64,000 nucleotides of DNA from Phylloscopus collybita (Eukaryota > Chordata > Aves > Passeriformes > Phylloscopidae). The stretch lies in assembly GCA_027886175.1 (NCBI GenBank), contig JAJNNQ010000077.1:4092001-4156000 (forward strand), in the 5' to 3' direction. Under the pieces are notes generated by a model. The model saw only the letters and a list, made by a program, of their open reading frames with translations, was not told the origin of the DNA and ran no database searches. The position numbers were made by a program, and so were the translations under genes. Below are positions 5,269 to 52,835 of this stretch, piece after piece; within the stretch, counting starts at the first letter, position 1, and each line of letters begins with the position of its first letter.

Positions 5269-5269
5269 C

Positions 5270-5640
5270 TACCAAAAATGGGGAAAGATAAAAGAAACTG
5301 CTTATACCAGGAGAGAAGTAAGAAGCAGCATTCTTTATTCAGCCCAATGCACAAGGGGGAATAACTCCTCCCAAAGCTGTGCATGCTGAATACAGGGAAG
5401 TTCCTGCTTACAGACTGTATTTTACATTCATATTCAGTGACTGACACAAAATAAACATACATAAAATAATAATTTTCCTGAAATCATTAAAATATTTTCT
5501 TTCCCCTTCACAGATGTGTTCTTCTGTCATGGGGGTCTCTTTGGTAGTCTCTGGTAGCTGGTGATGCCAGAGTCACACCTGACTGCCTGCTGGACTGCTA
5601 AAAGTTGGCACAACTGGAGCTGGTAACTTTCAAATTGTCC
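5270..5640 (-). mobile_element. LTR-like segment
   Basis: On the minus strand a U3-like AT-rich stretch leads to GGCTGAATAAAGAATGC, a good polyadenylation context, then a short tail ending at the D1 array. This looks like a solo LTR placed in or next to the minisatellite, but exact ends and a target duplication were not recognised. The inverted copy is 32915-33285. Confidence 0.5.
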
Positions 5641-12217: not shown

Positions 12218-12930
12218 TGTCCTGGGTTGTGGAGCCGGGTTTTGTGTATTCTTTTTCCATTTGTTTGAAGGCCTGAGGCCTCATCTTAATAGGCCATTAG
12301 CACCTTCCCAGCCTGTACCTTCCCCTCCAGAGCGGTGCATCTGCATTTCTATTACCCTATTGTGAGATACATCTCATCCCCTGGCAGTGGGGTGGGGGGA
12401 GCAGGCAGTTTCTCTGGATAAACGGAGACTCACAGACACAAGAGCTGCTGGTTTTTCACCTGATTTTTCCCGGGACGAAGACCGGACTTCATCTCACCAG
12501 ACTCCATCTCACCATTCCTGGACCCACTCCTCATCATCACCAGACCCTCTCCTCACCACCACTGGATCTGCTTTTCCACAGAATCGTCTCTGCTCCAGCA
12601 GAATCACGTCTGCTACTTCAGAAGCACTCACTTTTGGACTGCTCTCAACATCCTGAATCACAGGGTCAGGTTCTGGCTCTGACTCTGTCAGGGTTTTCCA
12701 AAATTGTTGTTTATTTGTTTGTTTGCTTGTTTGGGTCAGTGGTTTTGTTTCCTATTACATTTGTATTGTTGATATTCTTAGTAAAGGACTGTTATTCCTA
12801 TCCCCAAAATCTTTGCCTGAGAGCCCTTGATTGCAAAATTATAATTTGGAGGGGTGTGAGGTGTTTGCATTCTCCATTCTAGGGGAACCCCAGTTTCCCT
12901 GGCAGAAACCTGTCTTTCCAAACCAAGACA
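12218..12930 (+). repeat. 5' LTR of ERVL provirus (713 bp)
   Basis: Begins TGTCCTGGGTTGTGGAG and ends CCAAACCAAGACA. The first ~190 and last ~350 bases match the 3' LTR, but the centre (about 12400-12580) is unrelated to it. It does match the centre of the LTR at 59433-60149, so it belongs to a different LTR subtype from its partner. Confidence 0.93.
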
Positions 12931-12935
12931 GATTT

Positions 12936-12954
12936 TGGCGCCCAAGGGTGGGGC
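12936..12954 (+). promoter_or_regulatory. Primer-binding site, tRNA-Lys1,2-like
   Basis: TGGCGCCCAAGGGTGGGGC lies five bases after the 5' LTR. It matches the PBS used with tRNA-Lys1,2 except that one base (C) is replaced by GG in the middle. Confidence 0.7.
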
Positions 12955-13020
12955 ACGAGGGCATTGAGAGAGAGGAATAACAGTTCTTGGGTATTAGATA
13001 AAAGCCCACTGGCCAGAATA

Positions 13021-14511: not shown

Positions 14512-14774
14512 CCCCCAGCTCGAGAGAGAGGGTACACCCCAAGAGCTGACCTGTGGTTTTATCTGCGTGACCATGGGGAAGACATGGGAATGTGGGATGG
14601 GAAACCCACTTCTGTCCTGGCAGCACGGGTGTGTGAGCTCAAGGAGAGGAACAATCGCCAAGGGGGATCTACGAAAATGAAAGTAGCCTCAGCCTCCTAT
14701 AACCAAGCTGCCAATGCTGTGTTGAATCCCCTTGAAGGAACCTCTAGTATGTATGCTCAGGAAGGGGATAACCA

Positions 14775-17700
14775 GTGCTAGAGGACCCTGCCTCTAGCCA
14801 GGTAGAGGAAAGGGATAATCGGATCTATTGGACTGTGTGGATCCGATGGCCTGGCACATCCGACCCACAAAAATACACGGCTTTGGTTGACACTGGTGCC
14901 CAATGTACCCTGATGCCATCAGGGTATGTAGGAACAGAACCCATTTCTATTTCTGGGGTGACAGGAGGGTCCCAGCAGCTGACTGTAGTGGAAGCCGAAG
15001 TGAGTTTAACTGGGAATGGGTGGCAGAAACACCCCATTGTGACTGGCCCAGAGGCCCCGTGCATCCTCGGCATAGACTATCTCAGAAATGGATATTTCAA
15101 AGACCCAAAAGGATATCGTTGGGCTTTTGGAGTAGCTGCTGTAGAGACGGAAGAGATCAAACAACTGAATACCTTGCCTGGTCTCTCAGATGACCCTTCT
15201 GCTGTGGGACTGCTAAGAGTTGAAGAACAACAGGTACCAATTGCCACAGCAACAGTGCACCGTCGGCAATACCTCACTGACAGAGACTCTGTGACCCCGA
15301 TCCATGAGATGATTCGTAAACTGGAGAGCCAAGGGGTGGTCAGTAAGGCTCATTCACCTTTTAACAGCCCCATCTGGCCTGTGCGTAAGCCCAGTGGGGA
15401 ATGGAGACTGACAGTGGATTACCGTGGCCTGAATGAGGTCACACCACCACTGAGCGCTGCTGTGCCAGACATGTTGGAGTTGCAGTATGAGCTGGAGTCC
15501 AAGGCAGGAAAGTGGTACGCGACCATTGACATTGCCAATGCCTTCTTCTCCATTCCTGTGGCAGCAGAGTGCAGACCCCAGTTTCCTTTCACCTGGAGGG
15601 GTGTGCAGTACACCTGGAATCAGTTGCCCCAGGGGTGGAAGCACAGTCCCACCATCTGCCATGGACTGATCCAGGATGCACTGGAAAAGGGTGAGGCTCC
15701 GGACCATCTACAGTACATAGATGACATCATTGTGTGGGGGAACACGGCAATGGAAGTCTTTGAGAAAGGAGAGAAGATCATCCAAATTCTCCTGGAAGCC
15801 GGTTTCGCCATCAAGAAGAGCAAAGTCAAGGGACCTGCCCAAGAGATCCAGTTCCTGGGAGTGAAGTGGCAAGATGGACGGCGTCAGATTCCCACTGAGG
15901 TCATCAATAAGATCACCGCCATGTCCCCACCGACCAACAAGAAGGAAACACAAGCTTTCCTAGGGGCCATTGGCTTTTGGAGGATGCACATCCCTGAGTA
16001 CAGTCAGATTGTGAGCCCTCTCTACCTGGTTACCCGCAAGAAGAACGATTTCCACTGGGGCCCAGAACAGCAACACGCCTTTGCCCAGATCAAGCAGGAA
16101 ATCGCACATGCAGTAGCCCTTGGCCCAGTCAGGACAGGACCAGAGGTAAAGAATGTGCTCTACTCTGCAGCCGGGAGCCATGGTCCGTCCTGGAGTCTGT
16201 GGCAGAAGGTGCCAGGTGAGACTCGAGGCCGGCCACTGGGATTCTGGAGCCGAAGCTACAGAGGGTCTGAAGCCAATTACACTCCCACAGAGAAGGAGAT
16301 CTTGGCCGCCTACGAAGGAGTTCAAGCTGCCTCAGAGGTGATTGGCACTGAAGCACAACTCCTCCTGGCACCCCGACTACCGCTGCTGGGGTGGATGTTT
16401 AAATGAAAGGTTCCCTCCACCCACCATGCTACCGATGCCACATGGAGCAAATGGATCGCCCTCATCACTCAGCGCGCCCGTATTGGTAACCCGAATCGCC
16501 CTGGGATTTTGGAAGTAATCACCAACTGGCCAGAAGCTGAGAACTTCAGTCTCACTGACGAAGAAGAACAAGTAACCCGGGCTGAAGAAGCTCCACCATA
16601 CAACCAACTGCCAGCAGAAGAAACACGCTACGCTCTTTTCACTGACGGTTCCTGTCGCATCGTAGGGATGAACCGGAAGTGGAAAGCAGCCGTATGGAGC
16701 CCCACACGACAGGTTGCACACGCCACTGAAGGAGAAGGTGGGTCAAGCCAGCTTGCTGAACTCAAAGCTGTTCAATTGGCCCTGGACATTGCTGAAAGAG
16801 AGAAGTGGCCGAAGCTCTACCTCTACACTGATTCGTGGATGGTGGCTAATGCTCTGTGGGGCTGGCTGGAAAGGTGGAAAAAAGCCAACTGGCAGCGTAG
16901 GGGAAAACCAATCTGGGCTGCTGATGAGTGGAAGGACATTGCCATCAGGGTAGGGAAAATACCTGTGAAAGTCCGTCATGTGGATGCCCATGTCCCCAAG
17001 AGTCGGGCTAATGAGGAGCACCGGAACAACGAGCAAGTAGATCAAGCTGCGAGGATAAAGGTATCCAAGGTAGACTTGGATTGGCAACACAAGGGAGAGT
17101 TGTTCCTAGCTCGGTGGGCCCATGATGCTTCAGGTCATCAGGGCAGAGATGCCACCTATAAGTGGGCACGAGACCGAGGGGTGGATCTAACCATGAACAG
17201 TATTTCACAGGTTATCCACGACTGTGAGACGTGTGCTGCCATCAAGCAGGCCAAGCGGGTGAAGCCCCTCTGGTACGGTGGACGGTGGTCCAAGTACAAG
17301 TATGGGGAGGCCTGGCAGATTGATTACATCACTCTGCCCCAAACCCGCCAAGGCAAGCGCTACGTGCTGACCATGGTGGAAGCCACCACTGGGTGGCTGG
17401 AGACCTATCCTGTGCCTCATGCCACCGCCCGGAACACCATCCTGGGCCTGGAAAAACAAGTCCTGTGGAGACATGGCACCCCTGAGAGGATTGAGTCGGA
17501 CAACGGGACTCATTTCAAGAACAGCCTCATAAACACCTGGGCTAAGGAACACGGCATTGAATGGATATATCACATCCCTTATCATGCACCAGCTGCCGGG
17601 AAAGTTGAACGGTGCAATGGACTGCTTAAGACCACCCTGAAAGCACTTGGCGGGGGGACCTTCAGAAATTGGGAAGTGAACTTAGCAAAGGCCACCTGGA

Positions 17701-17963
17701 TGGTCAACACCCGAGGGTCTATTAATCGAGCTGGTCCTGCCCAGTCTACCCCTTTGCACACAGTGGATGGAGACAAAGTCCCTGTAGTACATATGAGAGG
17801 TATCTTAGGAAAGACTGTTTGGGTAAACCCCACCTTGGGCAAAGGTGAACCCACCCGTGGGATTGTTTTTGCTCAAGGACCTGGTAACACTTGGTGGGTG
17901 ATGCAGAAAGATGGGAAAACCAGTTGTGTACCACAGGAAAACCTAATCCTGAGTGAGAACTGA
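14775..17963 (+). pseudogene. pol: ERVL pol with one in-frame stop
   Basis: Protease, reverse transcriptase, RNase H and integrase in one frame. Protease motif DTGA is near residues 39-42. Reverse transcriptase shows TVDYRGLNE, LPQGWKHSP and YIDD near 314-317. TGA at 16404-16406 interrupts the frame before RNase H, which resumes with TDGS near 624 and acidic partners. Integrase has an HHCC-type finger (HDASGH, CETC) and the D,D,E core (QIDYITLP, ESDNGTHFKN, GKVERCNG). The start is in the -1 frame just before the gag-frame TAG, with no ATG, as expected for frameshift expression. Apart from the stop the frame is intact, which suggests a fairly young element. No env follows. Confidence 0.92.
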
Positions 17964-20258: not shown

Positions 20259-20280
20259 TGCCCATGGGTAGCCAGAGCAT

Positions 20281-21213
20281 ATGTCCAACAGCAGCTCCAT
20301 CAGCCACTTCCTCCTGCTGGCATTGGCAGACAGGCGGCAGCTGCAGCTCCTGCACTTCTGCCTCTTCCTGGGCATCTCCCTGGCTGCCCTCCTGGGCAAC
20401 GGCCTCATCATCAGCGCCGTAGCCTGCGGCCACCACCTGCACAGCCCCATGTTCTTCTTCCTGCTCAACCTGGCCCTCACTGACCTGGGCTCCATCCTAA
20501 CCACTGTCCCCAAAGCCATGCACAATTCCCTCTGGGACACCAGGAACATCTCCTACACAGGATGTGCTGCTCAGGTCTTTATGTTTTTGTTTTTCATCTC
20601 AGCAGAGTTTTCCCTGCTGACCATCATGTGCTACGACCGCTACGTGTCCATCTGCAAACCCCTGCACTACGGGACCCTCCTGGGCAGCAGAGCTTGTGCC
20701 CACATGGCAGCAGCTGCCTGGGCCAGTGCCTTTCTCTATTCACTGCTGCACACAGCTAATACATTTTCCCTGCCCCTGTGCCATGGCAATGCCCTGGGCC
20801 AGTTCTTCTGTGAAATCCCACACATCCTCAAGCTCTCCTGCTCACACTCCAACTTCAGGGAACTTTGGCTTCTTGCTGTTAGTGCCTGTTTGGCACTTGG
20901 CTGTTTTGTGTTCATAGTTTTCTCCTATGTGCAGATCTTCAGGGCTGTGCTGAGGATTCCCTCTGAGCAGGGACGGTACAAAGCCTTTTCCACCTGCCTC
21001 CCTCACCTGGCCGTGCTCTCCCTGCTTGTCAGCACCTCATTTTTTGTCTACCTGAAGCCTCCCTCCATGTCCTCCCCATCCCTGGATCTGGCCCTGTCAG
21101 TTCTGTACTCGGTGGTGCCTCCAGCCCTGAACGCCCTCATCTACAGCCTGAGGAACCAGCATCTGAAGGCTGAAGTGTGGAGACTGATCACTGGACAATT
21201 TCAGAAACATTAA
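20281..21213 (+). CDS. Olfactory receptor, family 14 (avian gamma-c) type
   Basis: Intact single-exon class A GPCR of 310 residues, the usual length for the family. Visible hallmarks are an N-glycosylation site at the N-terminus (NSS), GN in TM1 (LLGNGLI), PMFFFLLNLALTDL in TM2, Cys at the TM3 start, MCYDRYVSICKPLHY in place of the usual MAYDRYVAIC, KAFSTCLPHL in TM6 and LNALIYSLRN in TM7. It would act in olfactory neuron cilia through G-olf. The start ATG lies 23 bases after a splice acceptor, and a polyadenylation signal lies 31 bases after the stop. The paralogue at 51879-52814 differs at about 33 positions, mostly after residue 100. Family 14 assignment is by overall resemblance and not by tree. 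Confidence 0.93.
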   Translation: MSNSSSISHFLLLALADRRQLQLLHFCLFLGISLAALLGNGLIISAVACGHHLHSPMFFFLLNLALTDLGSILTTVPKAMHNSLWDTRNISYTGCAAQVFMFLFFISAEFSLLTIMCYDRYVSICKPLHYGTLLGSRACAHMAAAAWASAFLYSLLHTANTFSLPLCHGNALGQFFCEIPHILKLSCSHSNFRELWLLAVSACLALGCFVFIVFSYVQIFRAVLRIPSEQGRYKAFSTCLPHLAVLSLLVSTSFFVYLKPPSMSSPSLDLALSVLYSVVPPALNALIYSLRNQHLKAEVWRLITGQFQKH

Positions 21214-34400: not shown

Positions 34401-34810
34401 TTTGCAGGGCTGGAACACCTCTGCTCTGGAGCCAGGCTGAGAGAGCTGGAGCTGTTCAGCCTGGGTGTGAGAGGGCTCCAGGGAGACATTAGAGCCCATT
34501 CCAGCACCTAAATGGGCTTGGAGAGAGCTGGAGAGGGACTTTGGACAAAGGCCTGGAGTGACAGGACAAGGGGGAATGGCCATGAGGTGAAGGAGGGCAG
34601 GTTTAGATGGAATATTGGGAAGAAATCTTCCCAGTGAGGGTGCTGAGGCCCCGGCACAGGGTACCCAGAGAGGCTGCAGGCTCCCCACCTCTGGAGGTGT
34701 TCAAGGCCAGATTGGATGGAGCAATCTGGTCCAGTGGAAAATGTCCCTGCCCATGGCAGGAGACTGAAACTGGATAATCTTTAGGATTCCAACCCAATGC
34801 CATTCCATGA
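34401..34810 (+). mobile_element. CR1 LINE 3' fragment (copy)
   Basis: Inverted copy of 3709-4104, ending in a CATTCCATGA-type terminus. Confidence 0.88.
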
Positions 34811-35220
34811 CCCTCAATTTGCCCCTGCCTGCCTTCCTTAGCAGCAGGCTGACATGTTCCTTTTGCAGCCATTTACTGCAAACACAGCCACTGAATTCAC
34901 TTTGCCCTGGATGTTGCCTGTGGCCTCTATCAGCTCAGGCTGAGCTTTGGCTTTCCTAAACACATGAACACACACTCAGGTCAGGTTTCTGAATTCCTCC
35001 TCCATAGCTTCTCGTCACTTCCATCTCCTGGTCATTGTGCTGTGGCTCATCCCTGCCATTTGTCCCTGAGGCAGCACAGCCCCCCTGCCCAGCACAGGCC
35101 CCACATCCCCCCCATCAGACACAGCACAGCACAGGGTGTGTTTGGGGTGGGCAAATGTTCCCCACCAGAGTGTCCATTCCAGACCTCAGTGTCCAGTTCC
35201 AACACCCACATCCCATGCCA

Positions 35221-37321: not shown

Positions 37322-37621
37322 TGATGGCGATGACAAAGAGACGTGGACTCCATAGATTGCCCACATGAAGCCGTTTATTGATCCACCTAGCTGTGCTTTT
37401 ATACCCACGCATTATATAACAAGTAATACATGCCAAGTGATATTGCTTAACATATGCCTCGTACTAACTAACACAGGTATGCCTAAAATGCACTAACACA
37501 GCAAGTTTCTCAAAATCCCGCTTTGCCGTGCCAAGGCTTGAGGCCTAGCTCTTCTGCTCTTGACATGAGTGCAGCCATACTTCCAGTTCGGCTCTCTAGC
37601 TCCAGGCCCTGCAGGGCCACA
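37322..37621 (-). repeat. 3' LTR of betaretrovirus-like provirus
   Basis: TG...CA element of 300 bp on the minus strand, with a TATAAAA box at 37397-37403 and AATAAA at 37374-37379 (both minus strand). The env frame runs into its U3 as far as 37510. Confidence 0.95.
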
Positions 37622-38906
37622 TCTCCCCCTTTCTGTTCTACCAAGAGGATCTTCTTGGTGGTCTTGTCAATCAGTCTCTGCACACATTGCAAGATACATG
37701 GCAAGCAAATCATCATCAGCAACAATATGGCTAAAATATAAATTCCTATTTTAGCTAAATGTTTAAGCCAGCCAGTAAGTCCCCATCTGCCAAGCAAGTG
37801 TCCAAGCCAGTCACTATCATCTACTACTCTTAATTTGGTCACACTGTCCCGAAGAGCCTGTATGCCAGCATGAATAGACAAGGAGTTGTCTGACAGATTC
37901 ATACAGCATAAGCCTTCAAAATCTTCGCAACCGTGTCCATGGGCTAAAAGCAAAAAATCAATCGCAGCCCTGTTCTGAAGGGTTGCATGCCTAATACTGT
38001 CAACATCTGTTAGCAAGCCTGTTAAAGCAGAGCTAGTAGCATTAGTTTGTTTTGCAAGCCAGCAGCCAAGATTATTCAAAGTCTTCAATGCATGTGCTGT
38101 ACCTATAGCCGGAATGATAGAGGCAAAGATTCGGGCTCCAAGGTTCCAGGACTCCACATTATCATTACAGTCAGGGCTGTATGTGTGTGTGCTGCGTTTT
38201 GCTCTCACTAAGCTGCGCAGCATTGGCAAGTTATCCCGAAAAGAGTGAAACATGGTTAGCCTTCCAAAGGTACAAGGTCCTCCTACGGACCTTCCTGGTA
38301 TTCCCTTCCAAGCTCTGTTTCCACATATCATAAATATATTATCCATCAAGCCAATAGAAGCAGTCCCAGGTGTAATGGGCTGTGGCAGGGTATGATTACA
38401 CCAAGCAGAGGCATTGGCATAAATCCCCGTGCCTGAAACTTCCTGAAAAGGCCCAGCGGTGTAGTTTAAGTAAAAACATGCAAAAGCTTGCATGGATCCA
38501 AAAATGTCCAATTCCTGGGGTGGCAAGGAAAAGGGGGAAAAATCAGAAACCTTGTTCACCCCAACCCTTTATCATTAACAAAGTACCACCCAGCATTTCT
38601 ATTATTTTGTTTTCGATATCTATCATAACACCACCACAGCGGCTCAATTCGGCCTGGGGCAGTACAATCCCTGTGCATTGTTTCATTGTATAGGGTATCC
38701 CATTCAGTTTTCCCCAAAGGAATAGCTATCAGGCAAGTCTGGAAAGGATCACCAGGAGAGGTCATGGACAGGCACAGTGTAGACTCATTCAAAGCTTCAG
38801 CAAGCGTAAGCCATACATTGCGTTCAGGAAGGGGTGGCATGGCAGTCACTTCCTCTATATAAAGAATCCTTAAGTACAAAAGAGTTAATATATGAATTTT
38901 CCACAT
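37510..38906 (-). pseudogene. env: env, broken by a frame change
   Basis: Envelope surface and transmembrane subunits. The first frame starts at ATG 38906 (signal-peptide-like MWKIHILTLLYL) and stops at 38556-38558. The rest continues in another frame from about 38559 without ATG. That part has glycosylation sites, a furin-type RAKR site (residues 119-122 of the second frame), a disulfide motif CX6CC at 211-219, a membrane helix near 270-295 and a tail encoded across the polypurine tract into U3. The TM resembles those of alpharetroviruses, unlike the beta-type gag and pol. The surface part is about 235 residues, short for the group. A single indel near 38556 would explain the break. In this copy Env cannot be made as one chain. 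Confidence 0.88.
37622..37634 (-). promoter_or_regulatory. Polypurine tract
   Basis: AGAAAGGGGGAGA on the minus strand directly before the 3' LTR. It also encodes part of the env tail. Confidence 0.9.
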
Positions 38907-39367
38907 TTTGTTTTGATTATAGTTTGCTTATCCCACAACTTAACAATCAGGTTATCTCTTGTTTGATTATACACAGTAATAGCTAAAGCACGTTGATCTA
39001 ACAATTCTATTCTCTGCAAAAATCTCTGTAAATTAAAGCGTGAAAAATGTCTAGGACCAGGGAGGTGCTGCCGAAGCACTTCAGGCCCTAATTGATCCTT
39101 AATAAATGCAAGTGGAGTAAATGTTGTATTAATATCACGAAAGCAAAAGAAACATAAAATGCTAGCAATATATGAAATTCTACGAGTAGTTCGTACACCA
39201 CACTGTAGACAAACAGCAGTCACAACAGGGTAACAGCTAAAATTATGTGACCGACACTGTGCTTCCCTTTCTACACGTCTTTCTGCACAAACTTGAGCAT
39301 AAAGCAATTCATGTATTATATCATCAACATTACCATCACTATGTTTCTGCAATAGCGAACTAAGCAC
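38885..39367 (-). CDS. Accessory cysteine-rich ORF 2 between pol and env
   Basis: 160-codon open frame with no ATG; it begins at a GTG, and the frame is open about 70 bases further upstream inside ORF 1. Cysteines sit at 27, 38, 45, 53, 56, 72, 75 and 155, with two CxxC pairs (CLQC, CFFC), suggesting a small zinc-binding domain. There is no signal peptide or membrane helix. It overlaps ORF 1 by 8 bases in the +1 frame and overlaps the env ATG. Its F-x-C ... CLxCGxR ... LCxxCF layout repeats that of ORF 1. It may be a separate spliced or frameshifted product, or the second half of one longer protein split by an indel. I recognise no family. Confidence 0.6.
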   Translation of the reverse strand: MLSSLLQKHSDGNVDDIIHELLYAQVCAERRVEREAQCRSHNFSCYPVVTAVCLQCGVRTTRRISYIASILCFFCFRDINTTFTPLAFIKDQLGPEVLRQHLPGPRHFSRFNLQRFLQRIELLDQRALAITVYNQTRDNLIVKLWDKQTIIKTKCGKFIY

Positions 39368-39995
39368 TCTGCGAGTTCTTTGAATGTGTCTTTCGACTGC
39401 TTCTGGGTCTTCCAGTTTGCAAATCAGCAGGTATCACAGCATGCCTGCGGCATGTAGCTTCCCACTCACTATCCTCTATCTGCCAAATTTGTGGAATCTT
39501 TAAGCCTACCTTACACCTATGTTCTAATATTTGAGTATTCTTTTCTGCTGTTAACCGATTCACAAGGCGATCCAGGCGCCAAGCCAAATGCAATCTCTCT
39601 CGGGCCGCTAGGTCTTCAATCAAGCTTAACCCTTTATACCAAGGCAATCCAGTGTACTTACTTATAGCATTGTACCAAGTATCTCGGCTCCAATTATGAA
39701 AACAAGTCCCACAAAGGAGGTAATTTCTCCAATGGTTCTGAAACACCCACACCTTATGGCCACAACCCCCGCAATAGATTTTTATCCAAGCAGCACAATC
39801 ACGTTTTCCGCAATGCAAACAGGTGTGATATGGGATAGGATTATCACCACAAGTAAATACAGTAATTATCTGTCCCAAATCTTCCTCATTTGTCCAACGC
39901 AAGCGTCGTTGCAAAAGCTGTTCGAGTTGTTGTAGGGGTTTCTGTGTCAGCAGTCGAAGACGATGTAGGTGCCTTCGTCGTTCTTCGCTTGGCAT
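39360..39995 (-). CDS. Accessory arginine- and cysteine-rich ORF 1 between pol and env
   Basis: 211 residues from ATG at 39995, 32 bases after the pol stop. The N-terminus is arginine-rich (EERRRHLHRLRLL, then QRRLRW), as in nuclear or RNA-binding signals. Cysteines at 49, 59, 62, 67, 75, 78, 95 and 98 form three CxxC pairs (CLHC, CGGC, CGTC), a zinc-ribbon-like cluster. The C-terminus is basic and Ser-rich. Simple alpha- and betaretroviruses have no gene here, although several betaretroviruses make arginine-rich RNA-export proteins (Rem, Rec, Rej) from the 5' end of env. A comparable role is possible but unproven. The open frame in an element with about 2% LTR divergence supports a real gene. 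Confidence 0.68.
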   Translation of the reverse strand: MPSEERRRHLHRLRLLTQKPLQQLEQLLQRRLRWTNEEDLGQIITVFTCGDNPIPYHTCLHCGKRDCAAWIKIYCGGCGHKVWVFQNHWRNYLLCGTCFHNWSRDTWYNAISKYTGLPWYKGLSLIEDLAARERLHLAWRLDRLVNRLTAEKNTQILEHRCKVGLKIPQIWQIEDSEWEATCRRHAVIPADLQTGRPRSSRKTHSKNSQSA

Positions 39996-40027: not shown

Positions 40028-42748
40028 TCAGCTGTCTGAGAGGGGAGAAGGCGAGGGTGGAGCAGGCGAAACTGCAGGCGGAGTGCCAGGTTGATTAGGA
40101 TCCTCAGGGGAGGTCTGCAGAGGTTCTCTGAAAGGTCTCACATTCTTGGCTGGAAGCCATCTGGGGCCGATCTCTGTGGAGACACAAGCAAAACCTCTTC
40201 CCCATGTGACAAGGGGATAGGGTCCCATAATTTTACCCGTCTCAGGATCCTTAATTAAAACCGGGGCTTTCTGCTTTACTTCCAGCTTGGGGCTACTGCC
40301 AAAATGCCTTACAATCGGTGGGTTCGGATCCATGAGTGAGCAATTTAAAAAGTTAAACACATACAATGCTTTCTGCAATCGTTCTGCCGGGGTGGAATTC
40401 CCCATTCCCCCTTTCTGTTGCAACAAAAGGCGTTTAAGGGAAGCATGAGCCCTTTCAATAATAGCTTGTCCTGTGGGAGAGTGAGGAATCCCCGTCTTGT
40501 GTGTTATTCCCCAGAGAGCAAAAAAGTTCGCAACTCTCTGGGAAATGTATGCTGGCCCATTATCAGTTTTAACCTGTAAGGGAACACCAAGAACTGCAAA
40601 GGCATTTGAAAAGTGACGGCACACGTCCTTTGCTGATTCTCCTGTGTGGCATGAGGCAAGTAAAGCACATGAAAAGGTATCAATAGAGGAGTGAATGTAC
40701 TTGAGTCTCCCAAACTCAGGGAAGTGAGTTACATCTGTTTGCCAAATCTGGAGGCTTTCGAGTCCTCTAGGGTTAACACCTCCAGCAACGGCAGGGGAGG
40801 AGTGCCTCTGGCAATCTGGGCACACAGCCACAATACTAGCAGCTTGGCGTGTAGTCAAATCAAAGGTGCGAGCAAGTGCAGCAGCATTCTGATGGAAGAA
40901 AGCGTGGCTGAGTTTAGCCTGAGAAAAGCGATCTGGTAAATGAACAGTTAAAGTAAGCAAGTCTGCCTGGCGGTTTCCCTCTGCAATAAAACCAGGCAAA
41001 GTAGTGTGAGACCTAACATGCATGACAAAATAGGGGTGCTGTCTGTTATCTAGAAGGTAAACAAGTTGTTGCAACCAGTAAAACAGATCCTTGTTAGGCA
41101 CATCTTTCAAGACAGCAGCTTCAGCTCTCTCCACAAGGCCTGCAACATAAGCAGAATCTGTTATTAAGTTTAAAGGAGCAACAAAACGTTGAAAGGCTCA
41201 AACAACAGCTGCTAATTCAGCAATCTGGGGGGAACCCGAAACTGTAGCGACATCTGAGTCCCACCGGGCGAGATCGGTGTTCCACCACAGCAGTACTGAC
41301 TTCTGAGTGCGTCCAGAACCATCTGTAAAAACAGTTAAAGCTTGTAAAGGGATCTCACTTCTTTTAGGACGCATCAGGAGGTTAAAACTGGTGGCTACAA
41401 GTCTGTGCTTTGGGGGATGTGTAGAAAGCTGTCCAGAAAAGTCTGCAAGGGCAATTTGAAAAACTTCAGATTGTTGCAACAGCCACTGTAAATAGAAAGT
41501 AGTAACAGGCAAACAAATATAACAGAAATCCACACCTGCAAGTGTGGTAAGTCTCTGTCTTGCTTTAACAATAAGCATAGCGAACATTTCATGTTGTGTA
41601 GTTACAGTTTTAGACATCTGATGTGGCAAAAAAATCCATTCAATAATCAGCAAGGGGTCGGGCGCTTTAGGATCCCACTGAAAAATTAAAGCATGAGGTT
41701 GTTTACCTGGATTCAGAATTATCAGTGAAAAAGGCAACTCAGGAGCCCATCGGGCTGCTTGCTGACTGGAAATAGCATCAGCTACCAGTTGCAGTGCTTG
41801 GCAGGCCTCTGGTGAGAGGTGCCGGGGTGAAAGGAGATCAGACTCCCCCTTCAGCAACTCAAACAGAGGGGCTAATTCAGTGTTTGAAATTCCCAATAAG
41901 GAACGAACCCAATTTATCTTTCCCAGAAGTTTCTGGGCATCATGCAAAGTACGAATGTCAGCATGAATTTGCAAAGGCTGAGGAGAAATACTCTGGGTCC
42001 TAATGCGCCATCCTAAATATGTCCGGGGGGGCTGACGCTGAATCTTTTCAGGAGAAATACAAAGTCCTGCTTGGGTTACAGCAGCAGTGACAAGGGCTAG
42101 GGCTTCCTCCATGATTTCCTGTTGTTCTGCTGCAACAAGAATGTCATCCATATAATGATATATCAAAGCAGCGGGCATTTGCTTACGAATGGGGGCTAGG
42201 ACCCCCGCAACAAACCACATACATATTGTAGGAGAGTTTTTCATTCCTTGGGGAAGAAAACGCCAATGGTACCTTTGCAAGGGGGCTTGCAAATTAAGGC
42301 TAGGAACAGAAAAGGCAAATTTAGGAGCATCATCAGGGTGCAAAGGAATATCGAAGAAGCAGTCCTTTAAATCTATTACTGTGAGATGCCAATCACGGGG
42401 AATCATGGTAGGGGAAGGTAAACCAGGCTGAAGGGTCCCCATGTCCTCAATAACATCATTAACTTTACGGAGATCTTGGAGCAAGCGCCACTTGCCACTT
42501 TGTTTTTTAACAACAAACACAGGTGAGTTCCAGGGACTGGTAGAGGGGACTATACGTCCCTTCTCCAGCTGCTCCTGGACAAGGTCAGTGAGTGCGCGTA
42601 ATTTGGGAAAGGGAAGGGGCCATTGATCCACCCAGACAGGTGTCTCAGTTTTCCAGGTTAATTTCAGGGTGCTACGCGCCGCAATGGCCCCAATTAAAAA
42701 TCTGACTGCATTTTTATTCCCCATTGAGAGAGCACATCCCGTCCCCAC
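40028..42748 (-). pseudogene. pol: Betaretrovirus-like pol with one in-frame stop
   Basis: Reverse transcriptase, RNase H and integrase. The frame is -1 relative to gag-pro and overlaps its end by 55 bases, as expected for a pro/pol frameshift. T5 and A5 runs lie in the overlap but no canonical slippery heptamer was identified. Landmarks: LPQGMKNSP, YMDD at residues 199-202, TDGSG of RNase H near 475. TGA at 41195-41197 interrupts RNase H after its second acidic residue, and the same frame then continues. Integrase shows the HHCC finger (HAFFHQ, CPDC) and D,D,E core (QTDVTHFP, KTDNGPAY, AIIERAH), ending in a proline-rich tail. The defect is one stop codon. Confidence 0.93.
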
Positions 42749-45171
42749 AGCACCATAGGCACAGGTAACACAAATGGCCTAACAGAGGCTATGCGACCAT
42801 CAGGTCCTGTCACCTGTATGGGACAGAGACTTTGATGACTGTTGCTATGTCCCCCAATCCCAGTGAGGGTTTGTGATACCTCAGTGAGGGGCCAAGTGGG
42901 GGGCCACTTGGCCTGAGAGACTATACTCACGTCCGCACCCGTATCCAGAATCCCGGTGACTGTCACCTGCTGTCCCCGCAGTGTCAAGGTACATGTATAT
43001 ACAGGGCGTTTATTGGAAATCTCCTGCACCCACAATATTTCCGGGGTACCTGTGGAACCAAACCCTCCCTCTCTTGTGTTACACTCTGGTACAGGGGGTG
43101 TTAAACTGTGTGTAAAGGGGATCAATTGTGCAATGCATGCCCCTCGTGGAACAGTACAAGGTGGAAAAGGAGTCCAAGCCATTATTTTTATTTCCCCTAC
43201 AGAGTCCGAGTCTATGACTCCTGGCAAAACAAAAAGTCCTTGGATGGTAGTTGAGGACCTGCCCACCAGCAAGGCACTCGTCTGGGGTCCCGGTGGACCA
43301 AAAATTCCTGTAGGGAGTAAATGAACAGTAGAATCAAGCAACGTTACTGTGTCTGAGGTTGCCAGGTCCATGGCGAAGCTGCCTGGGGTTGCTGGACGTA
43401 GGCTTGAGATGGTCCTTGGCTGGGCTGTGGCTGTGGGGCTGGCGGAGCTGGCGCTGGCGTCTGTGGTCGGACGTACTGTGCCGGGGGCCGGGGGGGGGAT
43501 TTGTATCGTCACGCGTCTCCGGCCATCCGCGCTCCTGTTCCAGTTTCCCTGGACCGGGCGACCTTCAGAATCATACTTAGAATGACATTCATTAGGAAAA
43601 TTACGACCCTTACGACACCGAGGGCATATATCAGGGATCTTAGATTTGGCTCCTTCCCGAGCAACGCAGTGTTTTTTCAGGTGACCGGGCTTATGACATT
43701 TATAGCAAACAGGTGACGTACCCTTAGCTGCTGCGAAAGCTGCAGCCATAGCCTCATACTGATGTTCCAGAGTCCCAATACGATTACACGCCTCAACCAT
43801 TTCGACAATGGTCGGTTCCTGGTTCGGCAGGGACTTTAGGAGTTTTTTACAGTCAGCATTTGCATTTTCAACAGCAAGTTTTAAAAGCAAGATTTCACGA
43901 GCATCTGCATTATCAATCTGACGTTCCAGTGCCTGCTTGAGGCGATCAATAAATTGCATATATGGCTCCTGGGGTCCCTGGACAATAGTTGTAAATGCCT
44001 TCAGGGGTGTTTTTGCATCAGGGACCTTAAGGAAAGCCTGGCGCGCCGCATCACGAGCCCCATCTAGAGCCTCCCGCGGGCATTCACGCGCCTGGGTAGC
44101 AGGGTCAGAAAATGGACCTGTTCCCATTAGCTGCCTGATAGTAAGAGCAGCCAGGGCTGGATTTGCATGGCCCATATAAGTTAACAGCAGGCTTTGCAAG
44201 CCCTTTTCCCACTCCTTTTCCCATAAGCTGTATTGTACGGGAGTTAACAGTATTCTGGAGAGGGTTTTTAAATCATACGGGGTCATAGTGTGGGCAGCAA
44301 ATACGGAATCAAGCAAACTTGTAAAATGCGGTGACCCAATACCATGATCTGTAGCCGCTCGCTGCAACTCTTTAATCTCAGAGAAAGAAAGCTGTTCCCA
44401 GTGCGCTGAACGTTTCCTAGTACCAGTATAAATCACCGGAGCCACAATCCTCCCAGCAACCTCAAAATCCCCCTCTCTTAATGCCTGTTGTTTTAAGCGG
44501 AGCCAGTAGTCATGGGGGTCAGGGGGAAACAAATTAGGCTCCTTGTCAGGGTCTATGAGTCCAGGGTCGAAGGGATCCTCCTCCGGACCACTGTCTTCAT
44601 CGTCATAGTTAGCAGCAAAAGCCTTTACAGGTCGATGCGAGGGACCCCCCTCCCTTTTTCCCTCAACACACAACGCAGAAGCAGCAGGGGATTTGTGCGG
44701 CGGGAGGGGGGGTGAGGTAGACAAGCACTGGGATGCAGTTTCCTCGGAATTCAAGGAATTCGGGGAGTCTTCCGAGATAGCAGCAGTTTTAGAGATAGCA
44801 GCGTTCTGGTTTTTAGCAGCAGTCTCTTCGAGTTTTAAGGTAGACTGAGAATCAGCATTAGCAGTACAAGGTTTCTCTGCCTTTTGGGAATTTCTCTGAG
44901 CCTTCAAGGCTTCAAAAATCACCCTCCAAGAGGGCAGCATTTGTGCAACGGCTTTGTTTCCTTTCATGGCAGAGTCCCATAACTTAACTCCCGCCTCATC
45001 CCACAGATCTAAGGTAAAGATCGTGGATTCCGTTACTCCCGGGACTTCTGCCGCTACCCAGCGTAATAAAAGTTTTAAATCATGCGAAGGCAGAGTTTTA
45101 TCATGTTGCTGTAAGAGATTAAGCATACGTTCATAAACGTCTCTTTCCGGACCAGAAATTCCCTGACCCAT
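42694..45171 (-). CDS. gag-pro: Gag-dUTPase-protease fusion frame
   Basis: 825 codons open from ATG 45171. MGQG at the start is a myristoylation-type matrix N-terminus. An acidic, Ser/Pro-rich linker precedes capsid. The major homology region (QGPQEPYMQFIDRL) lies near 398-411. Nucleocapsid has a normal CX2CX4HX4C knuckle at 489-502 and a second, CPRC...C at 516-529, with Asn where His is expected. A dUTPase follows (about 596-710; motifs GVIDSD, VGRSS, PRGACIAQL, GGFGSTG), then protease with DTGAD at 743-747. In most betaretroviruses protease needs a -1 frameshift from gag; here gag, dut and pro share one frame. It is either a lineage trait or a fixed indel. Confidence 0.93.
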   Translation of the reverse strand: MGQGISGPERDVYERMLNLLQQHDKTLPSHDLKLLLRWVAAEVPGVTESTIFTLDLWDEAGVKLWDSAMKGNKAVAQMLPSWRVIFEALKAQRNSQKAEKPCTANADSQSTLKLEETAAKNQNAAISKTAAISEDSPNSLNSEETASQCLSTSPPLPPHKSPAASALCVEGKREGGPSHRPVKAFAANYDDEDSGPEEDPFDPGLIDPDKEPNLFPPDPHDYWLRLKQQALREGDFEVAGRIVAPVIYTGTRKRSAHWEQLSFSEIKELQRAATDHGIGSPHFTSLLDSVFAAHTMTPYDLKTLSRILLTPVQYSLWEKEWEKGLQSLLLTYMGHANPALAALTIRQLMGTGPFSDPATQARECPREALDGARDAARQAFLKVPDAKTPLKAFTTIVQGPQEPYMQFIDRLKQALERQIDNADAREILLLKLAVENANADCKKLLKSLPNQEPTIVEMVEACNRIGTLEHQYEAMAAAFAAAKGTSPVCYKCHKPGHLKKHCVAREGAKSKIPDICPRCRKGRNFPNECHSKYDSEGRPVQGNWNRSADGRRRVTIQIPPPAPGTVRPTTDASASSASPTATAQPRTISSLRPATPGSFAMDLATSDTVTLLDSTVHLLPTGIFGPPGPQTSALLVGRSSTTIQGLFVLPGVIDSDSVGEIKIMAWTPFPPCTVPRGACIAQLIPFTHSLTPPVPECNTREGGFGSTGTPEILWVQEISNKRPVYTCTLTLRGQQVTVTGILDTGADVSIVSQAKWPPTWPLTEVSQTLTGIGGHSNSHQSLCPIQVTGPDGRIASVRPFVLPVPMVLWGRDVLSQWGIKMQSDF

Positions 45172-45209
45172 CGTTCCCTGCAGCGCTATCCCAACCCAGC
45201 AGGGGTTAG

Positions 45210-45216
45210 CTCACCT
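45210..45216 (-). promoter_or_regulatory. Putative major splice donor in leader
   Basis: On the minus strand GGAG|GTGAGCT lies between the PBS and the gag ATG, close to the consensus donor. It would supply the 5' exon for subgenomic env and accessory messages. Confidence 0.6.
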
Positions 45217-45319
45217 CCTTTTCCCGGAGGAATTGATTGCCGGCCGGCCTCCGCTTCCTTTCAGTGGTCTCGTCCTGCAGGGCGTCGCCACCCGGTCGCA
45301 CAGCTAGGCGATTATCGCT

Positions 45320-45337
45320 CCTCACACGAGGGCACCA
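45320..45337 (-). promoter_or_regulatory. Primer-binding site, elongator tRNA-Met-like
   Basis: TGGTGCCCTCGTGTGAGG on the minus strand, two bases after the 5' LTR. It matches the complement of the elongator tRNA-Met 3' end except that TC replaces one C. Alpharetroviruses use tRNA-Trp and many betaretroviruses use tRNA-Lys, so this choice is unusual. Confidence 0.55.
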
Positions 45338-45339
45338 TT

Positions 45340-45639
45340 TGATGGCGATGACAAAGAGACGTGGACTCCATACATTGCCCATATGAAGCCGTTTATTGAT
45401 CCACCTAGCTGTGCTTTTATACCCACGCATTATATAACAAGTAATACATGCCAAGTAATATTGCTTAACATATGCCTCGTACTAACTAACACAGGTATGC
45501 CTAAAATGCACTAACACAGCAACTTTCTCAAAATCCCGCTTTGCCTTGCCAAGGCTTGAGGCCTAGCTCTTCTGCTCTTGACATGAGTGCAGCCATACTT
45601 CCAGTTCTGCTCTCTAGCTCCAGGCCCTGCAGGCCCACA
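45340..45639 (-). repeat. 5' LTR of betaretrovirus-like provirus
   Basis: 300 bp, about seven differences from the 3' LTR, with the same TATAAAA and AATAAA elements on the minus strand. Confidence 0.95.
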
Positions 45640-46668
45640 AGCTAAAACGGTGTCTATTCAAGGTTATTTTAGTCCCAATTATCCAATAATCAGTTGACAT
45701 CTCTTCGGGGGGTGAATTGGGTAAATCCTTGTTTATTGCTGCTCTTTTGGTGAGCCGCCTTTTTCTGTGTCTCGAATGTGTGTGTGTGTGTGTGTGTGTG
45801 TACAGTGAGCTTTGGTCTTTCTACAACAGTTTTGCCGGTTATTGTGTATTTTTGAGGCAAGGCTACCATCTTGTGTTAAAAGTTACAATTGCAAAAGGTT
45901 TATAGCGCTCTAGTTCATTTAATGTAACATGGCCCTCATGTGTTAAAAGTTATAATTTCAGTAAATTTTTGGATTAAAACGAACTGTTTGTCCTTAGTGA
46001 ATTGTTAAAAGTGGCCAGAGAAGCTCAGGCTCGAGGCACAAGAGCCTGGCAATCCGGGGAAGCACTCTCTTGGTAGTTTGGACTTGAACCGAATGTATTT
46101 TTGAATTTAGGAGAGGATTAGGTTAATGTTGAGTGAAAGAACAGGACAGCAAAGGTGCTTTTAAAAGGATTGTATTCAAGTCAAAGGAATACTCATTTGG
46201 CTTTTGACTGGGAACTACCCCCAGCTGAGGATAATCTCAGAAACCCACGGCAGTGGGGATGAATGAGGTGACCCCTTGCACTGTGTGTGGGCTGACAATT
46301 TTCCATTGGGAACCAGGATGGCATCCAGGTTGGGTCCTTCTCCACTGGAGAGGGTGCAAAAAGAGATGGTCTTGTATATCCCACAGAAGAAGACCTAGAT
46401 GCCCCAAGTGTATCCCAGAGCTCCCGAGATACTTTAATTGGGAAGTAGCACATGATCAGTGTGAGATAGTGAGTCCAGTCTGTGGGAAAAATTTGAGCCC
46501 AAGGATTTGGATATCTTTGGGTACCTTATTACAGCTGATGTTATTTTTAAGAAGAGAGGACAAATGGGAGGAGGTGACCTATGCTGATATGTTATTCTCT
46601 CTCTGAAACTATCCAGAATGGCAGAGAAGTTGTGGGATTAGACTTCCCTCTGACCTTTGAATCCGAGT
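45640..46668. repeat. Direct copy of arm A (953-2425)
   Basis: Begins exactly at the provirus edge with AGCTAAAACGGTG, matching AGCTAAAATGGTG at about 953. Offset is about 44680, changing to 44230 after a 450-base deletion near 46520. It ends head-to-head with the inverted copy at 46672. Confidence 0.9.
46200..46606 (+). pseudogene. Degenerate retroviral gag N-terminal fragment (copy)
   Basis: Copy of the 1540-2400 region with a longer uninterrupted frame (117 codons from about 46253; visible CGLTIFHWEPGWHPGW, RRPRCPKC). It is a relic of the same class I-like gag, with an internal deletion relative to the left copy. Confidence 0.4.
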
Positions 46669-46679
46669 TCCCAGTCAAA

Positions 46680-47074
46680 AGCTAAATGAGTATTCGTTCA
46701 ACTCAAACACAATCCTCCTAAAAGCACCTTCTCTGTCTTTCTCTTCTTTCGATCAGCATTAACCCAGTTCCCTCCTAAATTCAAAAATTTATTAGGTTCA
46801 AGCACAAATCACTTAGACAATGCTTCCCATGATGGCCAGGCTCTTGTGGCTCGAGCCCGAGTTTCGCTGGCCACCTTTAACAATTCACTGAAGACAAACA
46901 GCTCGGTTTAATACAAAAATTCCCAATTTACTGCAATTATAACTTTTGACACAAGATGCCCGTGTTACATCATAAATGAACCTGTTGCAATTATAACTTT
47001 TAACACAAGATGGTAGTGTTGCCTCAAAAATACACAATAATGGGCAAAACTGCTGTGGGAGACCAAAGCTCACT

Positions 47075-47105
<31 letters not shown>

Positions 47106-47470
47106 TTCAAGATGCAGAAAAAGGCAGCTCACCAAAATAACAGCAAGAAACAAGGATTTACCCAGTTCACCCTCCCGGTCAGATGTCAACTGTTTATTGG
47201 ATAATTGGGACTTAAATAGCCTTGAAGAGACACCATTTTAGCTCACTTTCTCAACTTGTTAGAGAGCTCACATCTCGTGAGTTTCTAATAGAAAAGGATA
47301 ATAAATTTCAGAGTGAGATTTCAAAAGCAATGTCTCCTGAGTTTAATTCCCCTGACCTGAGAGCAGGAAAGAGACAGGCAATCCCACTGTATCAGAGCCC
47401 AGGAATCCTCAGTTCTGACACAGAGGCATGTGACTAACTGAATAAAGGTGGTATTTTGTATGTTGTAGCA
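46680..47470 (+). mobile_element. LTR-like segment (inverted copy of 735-1530)
   Basis: Plus-strand version with ACTGAATAAAGGTGG near 47440 and a CA-rich microsatellite at about 47074-47096. Confidence 0.4.
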
Positions 47471-47549
47471 CCTGAGTTAGGTGTTAGGAGATCTCTTCTA
47501 GTTTTGTTTGGTGTGGAAAGATCCCCAAGGGTCCAAAAGGAGCTGCTTT

Positions 47550-47770
47550 CGTGTTCATTTGTCAGGCATCAGGAAGCAAGCCTCAGTTGTTACAAAGAGA
47601 GGCCTCATGGAACCCAGGACACCACTGGAACACCCTGGAATCCCAAGGGAGCAAGGCTCCACTTTCACCAAGTGGGGCCTCTTGGGACACAGGTGCCCCT
47701 GGGCCATGGCCAGGCCTTGTAGAAACAAGGCTCCATCATTGCACAGCACGGCCTGACGGGGCCTGGGAGG
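47550..47770 (+). repeat. D minisatellite block D0' (copy)
   Basis: Inverted counterpart of 431-650. Confidence 0.5.
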
Positions 47771-47779
47771 AAACTGTGT

Positions 47780-48465
47780 CCCAATGGATTCTGATGGAAT
47801 GCACCCCCTGCAGTGACCACACCCATCCACTGACCACTGCATTGATCACACCCAGCTCAGTGACCACATCCCCCTGATTGACCACTACCCCACTGACCAC
47901 ACCTACCCCATTGACCACACCCAATGGACCAGACCCATCAAAATGGCCTCACCCACCCCTTTGACAACACCCTAAAATGGCCACAGCTGCTCCATTGATC
48001 ACATCCCTCACACTGACCACTCTTATCCCAATGACCACACACCCATATCGACCGCACAAACTGCAGCAACCACACCCTTCCAATGACCACACCCACCCTC
48101 CAGTGACAACACCCTAATGACCACACTGACCACACTCACCTGACTGACCACTCCCCACTGACCACAGCCACTGACCATGCCACTGCCCACACGCCAGTGA
48201 CCACCCCACTGATCATACCCACTGACCAAACCCACTGCCCACCACAAGGACAACCCAATGACCACACCCATTGAGCACACCCACTGGCTATGCAGACTGA
48301 CCATCCCCCACTGACCACACCCTTTGACCACACCCACTGACCACACCCGCTGTGCACACCCACTGACAATGACTCCCCACTGACCACCCCACTGACCACT
48401 CGACACTGTCCAACTCAATGAACAACCCCACTCACAACCCCAATGACTACACCCCAGTGACCACC
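47780..48465. repeat. GACCACACCC minisatellite (inverted copy of 1-430)
   Basis: Units of 10-14 bp with TGACCACA cores. Longer than the visible left array because that one is cut by the window edge. Confidence 0.88.
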
Positions 48466-51878: not shown

Positions 51879-52814
51879 TCACCATCCAGTCATCAGTCTC
51901 CACACTGCAGCCTTGAGCTCGTGGTTCCTCAGGCTGTAGATGAGGGGGTTCAGGACTGGAGGCACCACCGAGTACAGAACTGACAGGGACAGATCCAGGG
52001 ATGGGGAGGACATGGAGGGGGGCTTCAAGTATGAAAATGTGCCAGTGCTGAGGAACAGGGAGACCACAGCCAGGTGAGGGAGGCAGGTGGAAAAAGCTTT
52101 GTGCCGTCCCTGCTCAGAGGGGATCCTCAGCACAGCCCTGAAGATCTGCACATAGGAGAAAACAATGAACACAAAACAACCAAGTGCTAAACAGGCACTA
52201 CCTGCAAGAAGCCCAAGTTCCCTGAGGAAGGAATTGGAGCAGGAGAGCTTGAGGATGTGTGGGATTTCACAGAAGAACTGGCCCAGGGCATTGCCATGGC
52301 ACAGGCGCAGGGAAAATGTATTGGCTGTGTTGATGAGAGCGTTGAGAAAGGCACTGGCCCAGGCAGCTGCTGCCATGTGGGCACAAGCTCTGCTGCCCAG
52401 GAGGGTCCCGTAGTGCAGGGGTTTGCAGATGGACACGTAGCGGTCGTAGCACATGACGGTCAGGAGATAGTACTCTGCTGACATGAAAAACAGAAAGAAA
52501 AACACCTGTGCAGCACATCCTGTGTAGGAGATGTTCCTGGTGTCCCAGAGGGAATTGTGCATGGCTTTGGGGACAGTGGTTAGGATGGAGCCCAGGTCGG
52601 TGAGGGCCAGGTTGAGCAGGAAGAAGAACATGGGGCTGTGCAGGTGGTGGCCGCAGGCTACGGCGCTGATGATGAGGCCGTTGCCCAGGAGGGCAGCCAG
52701 GGAGATGCCCAGGAAGAGGCAGAAGTGCAGGAGCTGCAGCTGCCGCCTGTCTGTCAGTGTCAGCAGGAGGAAGTGGCGGATGGAGCTGCTGTTGGACATT
52801 TGCTCTGACTGCAT
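51879..52814 (-). CDS. Olfactory receptor, family 14 type (second copy)
   Basis: Intact GPCR of 311 residues from ATG 52814, which adds five residues (MQSEQ) before the MSNSSS start used by the left copy; an in-frame ATG for the shorter form is at 52799. Hallmarks include LLGNGLI, PMFFFLLNLALTDL, MCYDRYVSIC, KAFSTCLPHL and LNPLIYSLRN with the standard Pro that the left copy lacks. It ends shortly after TM7 (MTGW), six residues earlier than its paralogue's tail. Differences from the left gene cluster in TM3, TM4-5 and TM6 and the extracellular loops, the odorant-contact part. Both genes keep splice acceptor and polyadenylation signal and look functional. Confidence 0.93.
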   Translation of the reverse strand: MQSEQMSNSSSIRHFLLLTLTDRRQLQLLHFCLFLGISLAALLGNGLIISAVACGHHLHSPMFFFLLNLALTDLGSILTTVPKAMHNSLWDTRNISYTGCAAQVFFFLFFMSAEYYLLTVMCYDRYVSICKPLHYGTLLGSRACAHMAAAAWASAFLNALINTANTFSLRLCHGNALGQFFCEIPHILKLSCSNSFLRELGLLAGSACLALGCFVFIVFSYVQIFRAVLRIPSEQGRHKAFSTCLPHLAVVSLFLSTGTFSYLKPPSMSSPSLDLSLSVLYSVVPPVLNPLIYSLRNHELKAAVWRLMTGW

Positions 52815-52820
52815 ATGGGC

Positions 52821-52835
52821 ACCTGTTCATGGAGA
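52821..52835 (-). promoter_or_regulatory. Likely splice acceptor of second receptor exon
   Basis: On the minus strand TCCATGAACAG precedes GTGCCCATATG, as in the left copy, giving a coding exon that starts eight bases before the ATG. Confidence 0.6.

Follow-up and report, generated by a model that had tools for sequence, protein, structure and literature searches.

The 64,000-nucleotide stretch of the Phylloscopus collybita genome analysed here (contig JAJNNQ010000077.1, positions 4,092,001 to 4,156,000; hereafter the window) carries on its minus strand, from approximately 45638 to 37322, a provirus in which two open reading frames (ORFs), designated A and B, lie between pol and env. The frames are arranged in the order gag-pro with dUTPase, reverse transcriptase (RT), RNase H-integrase, ORF A, ORF B and env (Table 1). 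The two long terminal repeats (LTRs, approximately 300 bases) differ at 7 of about 299 sites (2.3%), in agreement with the 2% or so given in a first-pass annotation of this DNA. In this copy an in-frame stop splits the RT frame from the RNase H-integrase frame and env has a frame change; A and B are open. As described below, A and B appear to belong to an accessory-gene family present in at least four endogenous retrovirus (ERV) families of both major classes.

Judged by its class II RT and integrase and by its dUTPase with protease, the provirus is a class II (alpha/beta-like) ERV. The best PDB sequence matches of its pol frames, 7sr6 and 7usf, are taken here to be class II, betaretrovirus-type proteins. 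Its env is by similarity of the alpha type (Avian_gp85, with a transmembrane subunit [TM] like that of avian sarcoma-leukosis virus [ASLV]): the second env piece has its best PDB matches in gp95 (5h9c) and the ASLV fusion TM (4jpr). What we take to be the primer binding site, at 45319-45337 of the minus strand, resembles that for elongator tRNA-Met with one extra base.

The frame of A is open upstream of its ATG, from 40094, and overlaps the end of pol. B reaches past the env ATG by 22 bases; otherwise both frames lie upstream of the env start. The first-pass annotation had reported two long ORFs of 211 and 160 codons at this position. The first is A, at the length given; B has 182 open codons, with the 160 corresponding roughly to the part beyond the A stop, and it does not qualify as a conventional stand-alone ORF, there being no in-frame ATG in 31 of 33 copies. 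(This and all later counts out of 33 refer to full-length copies in the host genome, the window included, 31 of them distinct.) A Markov simulation of the 1.14-kb stretch gave a longest frame of at least 211 codons with P 5e-5 and a second frame of at least 160 codons in 0/20000 cases. Three-base periodicity is present in A and in B (P 0.002 for each, the floor of 500 shuffles) and absent from two flank controls.

The five CxxC pairs counted earlier were all found, three in A and two in B. Both proteins have the pattern CxxC-x(15/16)-CxxC, which is zinc-ribbon-like, and both are basic, with net charges of +13 (A) and +9 (B). Cysteine 49 of B is kept in only 4/33 copies. When it is left out, the cysteine spacings of A and B correspond at a tolerance of ±1 (P 0.0005 under a uniform and 0.0025 under a clustered model); with exact spacing, the values are 0.0085 and 0.59, respectively.

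Copies were collected by searching the host genome (1.247 Gb, 517 contigs) with the A-B region. At least 42 accessory-region matches were found (40 of 75 candidates were scored), among them the 33 full-length copies and, outside these, seven that are partial or interrupted (L035 and L043-L048). The first-pass annotation had named copies without the ORFs, or full of stops, as evidence that would count against a gene; as they stand, A is open in 27/33 and B in 25/33 (B from 39415 on). Of the six indel entries recorded for A and B in these full-length copies, four have a length of 3 nt; the others, in L026 and L042, are frame-shifting deletions that lie inside A. No frameshift was found in B in any full-length copy. 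Since neither frame is shifted by an indel in 31/33 copies, B cannot be explained as the end of A severed by a frameshift in the window copy.

Two copies, L010 and L011, are near-identical to that in the window. L010 is likely a duplicate of the same insertion, since its 5' LTR is identical to the window's and its LTRs likewise differ at 7/299 sites. The LTR pairs of L040 and L041 differ at 6/300 and 6/295 sites, respectively (approximately 2.0% each), whereas the A-B regions of these two copies, with flanks, diverge from the window by 12%; most of this divergence therefore arose before insertion, while the element was still multiplying. The LTR comparison left out the L034 pair (55/276), the 5' piece of which looks off target, and a second LTR of L026 was not found. 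L046, L047 and L048 have a common large deletion in A and keep B. A protein database search with A was fruitless, and one with a profile (A2) returned only the protein P0001, which is nearest to L048 (91%) and thus belongs to this A-deleted sublineage. Host contig C59 (18 Mb) holds 20 of the 42 accessory-region matches, including many divergent ones, and may be the W chromosome.

The ratio of nonsynonymous to synonymous change (omega) was estimated between the window and seven divergent copies, with transition bias allowed for; these pairwise comparisons share branches and are not independent. Pooled over these copies, A has an omega of 0.40, B of 0.67 and TM of 0.21. Integrase has an omega of 0.20-0.25 in five of the seven copies, a range that leaves out L034 (1.05) and L039 (1.21, with 11 stop codons), the integrase of which looks misaligned in both; pooled over all seven, it is 0.61. 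Of the two near copies, L030 gives an omega of 0.44 (integrase), 0.26 (A) and 0.44 (B), and L012 one of 0.74, 0.09 and 1.33, respectively. The synonymous fraction of changes in A against five distant copies is 0.49-0.56, compared to 0.30-0.31 under neutrality, and neutrality was rejected in all five comparisons (P 0.0025 each, the floor of 400 simulations). A is thus under purifying selection by the dN/dS test that the first-pass annotation had proposed. The same check carried B only part of the way: neutrality was rejected in 2/5 distant comparisons (P 0.03), and selection on B alone is weak. Between B and P0001, the summed score of changes is significant (P 0.013).

A and B have relatives in other ERV families. 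A protein search of the host genome with A gave 41 places, 40 of which belong to the A family (some being two pieces of one copy). The other, a weak match (E 0.076), is L083, another provirus from a second class II family, in which an integrase 44% identical to that of the window is followed by an ORF of 182 residues (C47) and then env. A search with C47 in turn gave 47 places, of which A copies make up 23 (best E 0.006). Five of the remaining 24 were inspected (L083, L084, L085, L086 and L087), all of which lie in ERVs or are copies of one; the 19 places outside this inspection include a 67% copy on contig C54 and eight short matches on contig C20. L086 is a 68% copy of C47 with two stops. 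L084 has a 940-codon open pol stretch, an ORF of 241 residues (C65) and a 741-codon env frame with TLV_coat, and its RT piece is closest to RT of the murine leukaemia virus type (E 3e-100). In L085, an ORF of 145 residues (C7) overlaps the start of a 280-codon frame that has no Pfam match and is followed by a gamma-type Gag_p30 frame. L083 therefore has its accessory ORF between integrase and env, L084 has it between pol and env, and L085 upstream of gag.

Some further features of these places were seen. The gamma-type provirus piece of L084 occupies 2883-6030, with pol, accessory and env frames all open, and its accessory ORF is present again approximately 90 kb away on contig C65, with two residue differences. 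The eight matches on contig C20 (E 0.03-0.33) correspond to residues 105-153 or so of C47 and fall in open frames of 56-132 codons; they could be chance matches in a basic stretch or another gene family.

Relationships within the family were examined by profile searches of a set of 2566 sequences that included decoys and shuffles. The A profile reaches C47 (E 1e-5) and C65 (E 3.5e-4; best shuffle 0.0042), and the B profile reaches C65 (E 7.8e-11; best shuffle 0.12). C65 finds B (E 3e-10) and P0001 (E 2.6e-7), and C47 and C7 find each other (C47 to C7, E 2e-6, best shuffle 0.27; C7 to C47, E 1.9e-7, best shuffle 0.14). A family profile built without B, but with C65 included, retrieves B at E 8e-11 (best shuffle 0.017). 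B and the C65 protein are 32% identical. When A and B were compared directly by shuffling, P was 0.023 (local) and 0.013 (semi-global), with values of 0.88 and 0.71 for the C-terminal parts. C67, C78, C97, I172 and C177 (B numbering) are common to all six aligned sequences; both CxxC pairs of the full ribbon, CxxC-x(15-20)-CxxC, are found in A, B, C65 and C7; and the alignments show basic ends recurring in A, C65, C47 and C7. The ORFs of L083, L084 and L085 have a C-terminal C-G-x-x-I-x-V-P motif, and B ends just after C-G-x-x-I-Y. By homology beyond shuffles and decoys, then, A, B, C47, C65 and C7 are assigned to one family.

These relatives bear on where the ORFs came from. That other ERV families have related open frames in equivalent positions argues against a captured non-coding host sequence, a possibility raised in the first-pass annotation, and, together with the open copies and the purifying selection on A, supports its view that a real accessory gene is present. 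Capture of a host gene, as with KIT ligand in the crocodilian ERV CrocERV29, is improbable: the GC content at third codon positions is 0.25 in B compared to 0.39-0.45 in the other frames, as such an origin might leave it, but none of A, B, C47, C65 and C7 matches a Pfam family above cut-off, and the searches with A and C47 returned family copies or ERVs at every place assigned or inspected. Chance open frames are a negligible prospect. The window copy is young enough for frames to stay open by accident; frame length, periodicity, the copies, selection on A and the relatives all speak against it, and chance is refuted for A by the copies and for B by the homology with C65.

Table 1. Features of the provirus on the minus strand of the window (coordinates are window positions).
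Feature	Coordinates	Strand	Basis or remarks
5' LTR	45340..45638	-	direct repeat with 37322-37621
Predicted leader splice donor (last exon base), GAG/GTGAGC	45215	-	score 9.88, best GT site scored in the provirus
gag-pro frame with dUTPase and protease; gag ATG 45171	42694..45210	-	Pfam Gag_p24, zf-CCHC_5, dUTPase, RVP
RT frame of pol	41198..42778	-	Pfam RVT_1, RVT_thumb; best PDB sequence match 7sr6
RNase H-integrase frame of pol	40028..41197	-	Pfam rve, Integrase_Zn; best PDB match 7usf integrase
Predicted acceptors upstream of A (first exon bases 40035 and 40031)	40031..40035	-	40035 second of 529 AG sites
ORF A, 211 residues, accessory protein	39360..39995	-	ATG 39995, stop 39360; open in copies, pooled omega 0.40
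Predicted zinc ribbon of A: C67, C75xxC78, C95xxC98	39702..39797	-	five cysteines kept in 33/33 copies
ORF B, distant paralogue of A; 182 open codons, no AUG	38885..39433	-	open in copies; profile links
Predicted acceptor in phase 0 with B (first exon base)	39346	-	modest score 3.24; AG kept in 33/33 copies
Predicted zinc ribbon of B: C67, C75xxC78, C94xxC97	39143..39235	-	C67, C75, C78 and C97 in 33/33 copies; C94 in 32/33
Predicted env acceptor	39025	-	score 5.25; AG kept in 32/33 copies; next ATG downstream is that of env (38906)
env, first piece; starts with ATG 38906 inside the last 22 bases of B	38556..38906	-	open frame
env, second piece (end of surface subunit, and TM), other frame in the window copy	37510..38568	-	Pfam Avian_gp85, TLV_coat
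3' LTR	37322..37621	-	direct repeat with the 5' LTR

Splice sites were scored with a matrix. The 9-mer of the predicted leader donor at 45215 is identical in 8/8 copies read (the window and its duplicate included), and the first ATG downstream of the acceptor at 40035 is that of A. The AG of the acceptor at 40031, four bases on, is kept in 32/33 copies. Two candidate donors inside A, at 39510 and 39753, are in phase with B, and the leader frame that begins at ATG 45382, a possible source of an AUG, is in phase with 40031 (for A) and with 39346 (for B). On the proposed scheme, the leader exon would be joined to 40035 or 40031 for expression of A and to 39025 for expression of env, and B would be read either as a downstream exon, through the acceptor at 39346 and possibly the donors inside A, or from a non-AUG start. 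The absence of an AUG is common to B (31/33 copies) and the ORFs of L083 and L084 (there is no Met in the 605 residues of B and these two ORFs combined), so it is likely that they are reached through an upstream exon or initiated at a non-AUG codon.

From the basic ends and the ribbon, and from the placement and splice signals, we propose that A and B are a pair of accessory genes, distantly related to each other, the products of which, predicted zinc ribbons with basic ends, would be made from spliced mRNAs and regulate viral gene expression by binding RNA. We give this reading an even chance. Viral RNA would be bound by an N-terminal segment rich in arginine and leucine, together with the ribbon and the basic tail, and the task might be like that of Tat and Rev or Tax and Rex, reached by convergence and not by descent. 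We put greater trust in the wider proposition, which we hold to be probable: that a hitherto undescribed accessory-gene family, encoding zinc ribbons, has passed between bird retroviruses of class I (gamma-like) and class II (alpha/beta-like), occupies two genome positions and occurs twice in one lineage, such that lineages taken as simple are complex and carry AUG-less genes read through splicing.

The chief alternative accepts the family as real and gives it another task, that of countering host restriction as a zinc-ribbon adaptor that sends a host antiviral protein to degradation. Vif, Vpx and Vpr bring host antiviral proteins to degradation. A has an omega about double that of integrase and TM (0.40 compared to about 0.2), a pace that interaction proteins may show, and it contains ten Trp residues; an arms race would also fit the presence of two diverged relatives in a single element and of family members in unrelated retroviruses. 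The basic ends that recur across the family fit nucleic-acid binding better, however, and we consider a restriction role possible but doubtful.

Several observations weigh against the proposal that A and B are related, spliced RNA-binding regulators. AlphaFold models of A and B are uninformative (mean pLDDT 40 and 36, respectively). The family is held together by intermediates only, A and B through C65 and the family profile, and A and C7 through C47: in the set of 2566 sequences the A profile gives B an insignificant E of 1.2, A is missing from the hits of the B profile, and neither C65 alone (E 0.68) nor C7 alone (E 7.1) finds A. One shuffle reached E 0.0042 with the A profile, and C47 has lost half of its ribbon cysteines. 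As to expression, the AG of the strongest acceptor (40037-36, for 40035) is present in only 18/33 copies and absent from 15/33, and the leader frame is open and in phase in 5/8 copies read, one of them the window duplicate; in L012 it is out of phase and in L040 and L041 it has stops. A scan of RNA structure gave no clear response element, with a best z of -3.2 among 89 windows. (The most structured RNA window of the provirus is 38301-38480 of the minus strand, within env; its z of -3.2 is not significant alone.) Finally, neutrality of B was not rejected in the other three distant comparisons (P 0.19-0.35) or in the A-deleted sublineage L046-L048 (P 0.20-0.75).

This last result is what would be expected if A alone were a gene and B a decaying relative of it, still open because the copies are young. 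The pooled omega of B and its missing AUG point the same way, as do the comparisons with P0001 in which the count of positive changes (P 0.051) and the kept cysteines (P 0.126) fall short of significance. Yet B has kept its similarity to the C65 protein; it is free of frameshifts in the full-length copies, with its ribbon cysteines kept in 32-33/33; the summed score of its changes against P0001 is significant; and the AUG-less state is found in C47 and C65 as well. We therefore judge B to be unlikely, though by no means very unlikely, to be a mere remnant, and retain the reading of two accessory genes.

No lentiviral Tat, Rev or Vif and no deltaretroviral Tax or Rex match to A or B was found in Pfam at E up to 10. 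Searching the sequences of the PDB with A, B and the profiles A1, A2 and A4 yielded insignificant matches only, and a PHROGs search gave no relative. Among viral contigs, no relative was found with A, B, A2, TM, RT or the C65 ORF, the integrase piece giving one match of approximately 31 residues; profile A2 found nothing in a search of genome contigs. In the portions available of the literature searched, which leaves most subscription papers outside it, such an accessory family is not described (PMC4299795, PMC2717909, PMC3621094, PMC1224870, PMC3185594, PMC9967133, PMC10536682). The family is likely new to the literature.

The rest of the window contains a second ERV-like stretch at 12883-17963 (plus strand), with long frames that by appearance, not by domain search, resemble gag, pro-RT and RNase H-integrase, and with similar non-coding pieces flanking it near 12.3 and 18.0 kb. 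Long frames at 20272-21213 (plus strand) and 51879-52826 (minus strand), in inverted orientation, resemble what we take to be bird olfactory receptors. Segmental duplications, partly inverted and of 87-95% identity, relate 1-1842 and 3299-4000 to 46666-48189, 45640-46520 and 34516-35220. One duplication block starts at the outer edge of the provirus 5' LTR, the other provirus flank resembles a 37-38-bp minisatellite, and no target-site duplication is evident at the provirus flanks; the locus is thus likely rearranged.

Accessory genes make lentiviruses, deltaretroviruses and spumaviruses complex, and alpha- and gammaretroviruses are the textbook simple viruses. If the interpretation given here is true, the sharing of a gene family by elements of class I and class II within a single genome would mean that bird retroviruses, too, saw complex regulation emerge or spread. 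The family is present in dozens of recent and older copies in one of the ERV families; its part in complex regulation could be tested with existing bird RNA data, and it supplies a search profile for such genes in other vertebrates.

Among known systems, the lentiviral genes Tat, Rev, Vif and Vpr and the deltaretroviral genes Tax and Rex are extra genes expressed from spliced mRNAs; some are Cys- or Arg-rich, and several lie between pol and env. A and B are likewise extra genes between pol and env, with spliced mRNAs that are here predicted only, but they lack any such Pfam match and their carriers are beta/alpha-like and gamma-like. Rec, like Rej and Rem, is betaretroviral. A and B resemble Rej, Rem, Rec and the orf-x of jaagsiekte sheep retrovirus in that these are accessory functions of class II retroviruses; according to the portions available of the sources, Rej and Rem are encoded within env and orf-x overlaps pol (PMC3185594, PMC3621094), whereas A and B lie between pol and env. 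No arginine-rich stretch was seen in the env signal region of the window provirus, so a regulator of the Rej/Rem type is not evident there.

Closer to the host, the songbird element TgERV-F is also an ERV grouped with alpharetroviruses and of mixed features, but in the parts seen of its description its env is gamma-type, of the mammalian kind, unlike the Avian_gp85-type env found here (PMC10536682). The chicken alphabeta ERVs are intermediate between alpha and beta, as is the window element, with dUTPase before protease; in the text available no accessory gene is reported for them, and unknown accessory genes are called hard to recognise (PMC1224870). A parallel in layout is CrocERV29, in which, so far as the available part of the report goes, a KIT-ligand ORF lies between pol and env and tests suggest purifying selection (PMC4299795), as for A. 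The CrocERV29 ORF can be recognised as a host cytokine and occurs in a single lineage; A and B match no Pfam family, and their relatives are spread over three further ERV families from two classes.

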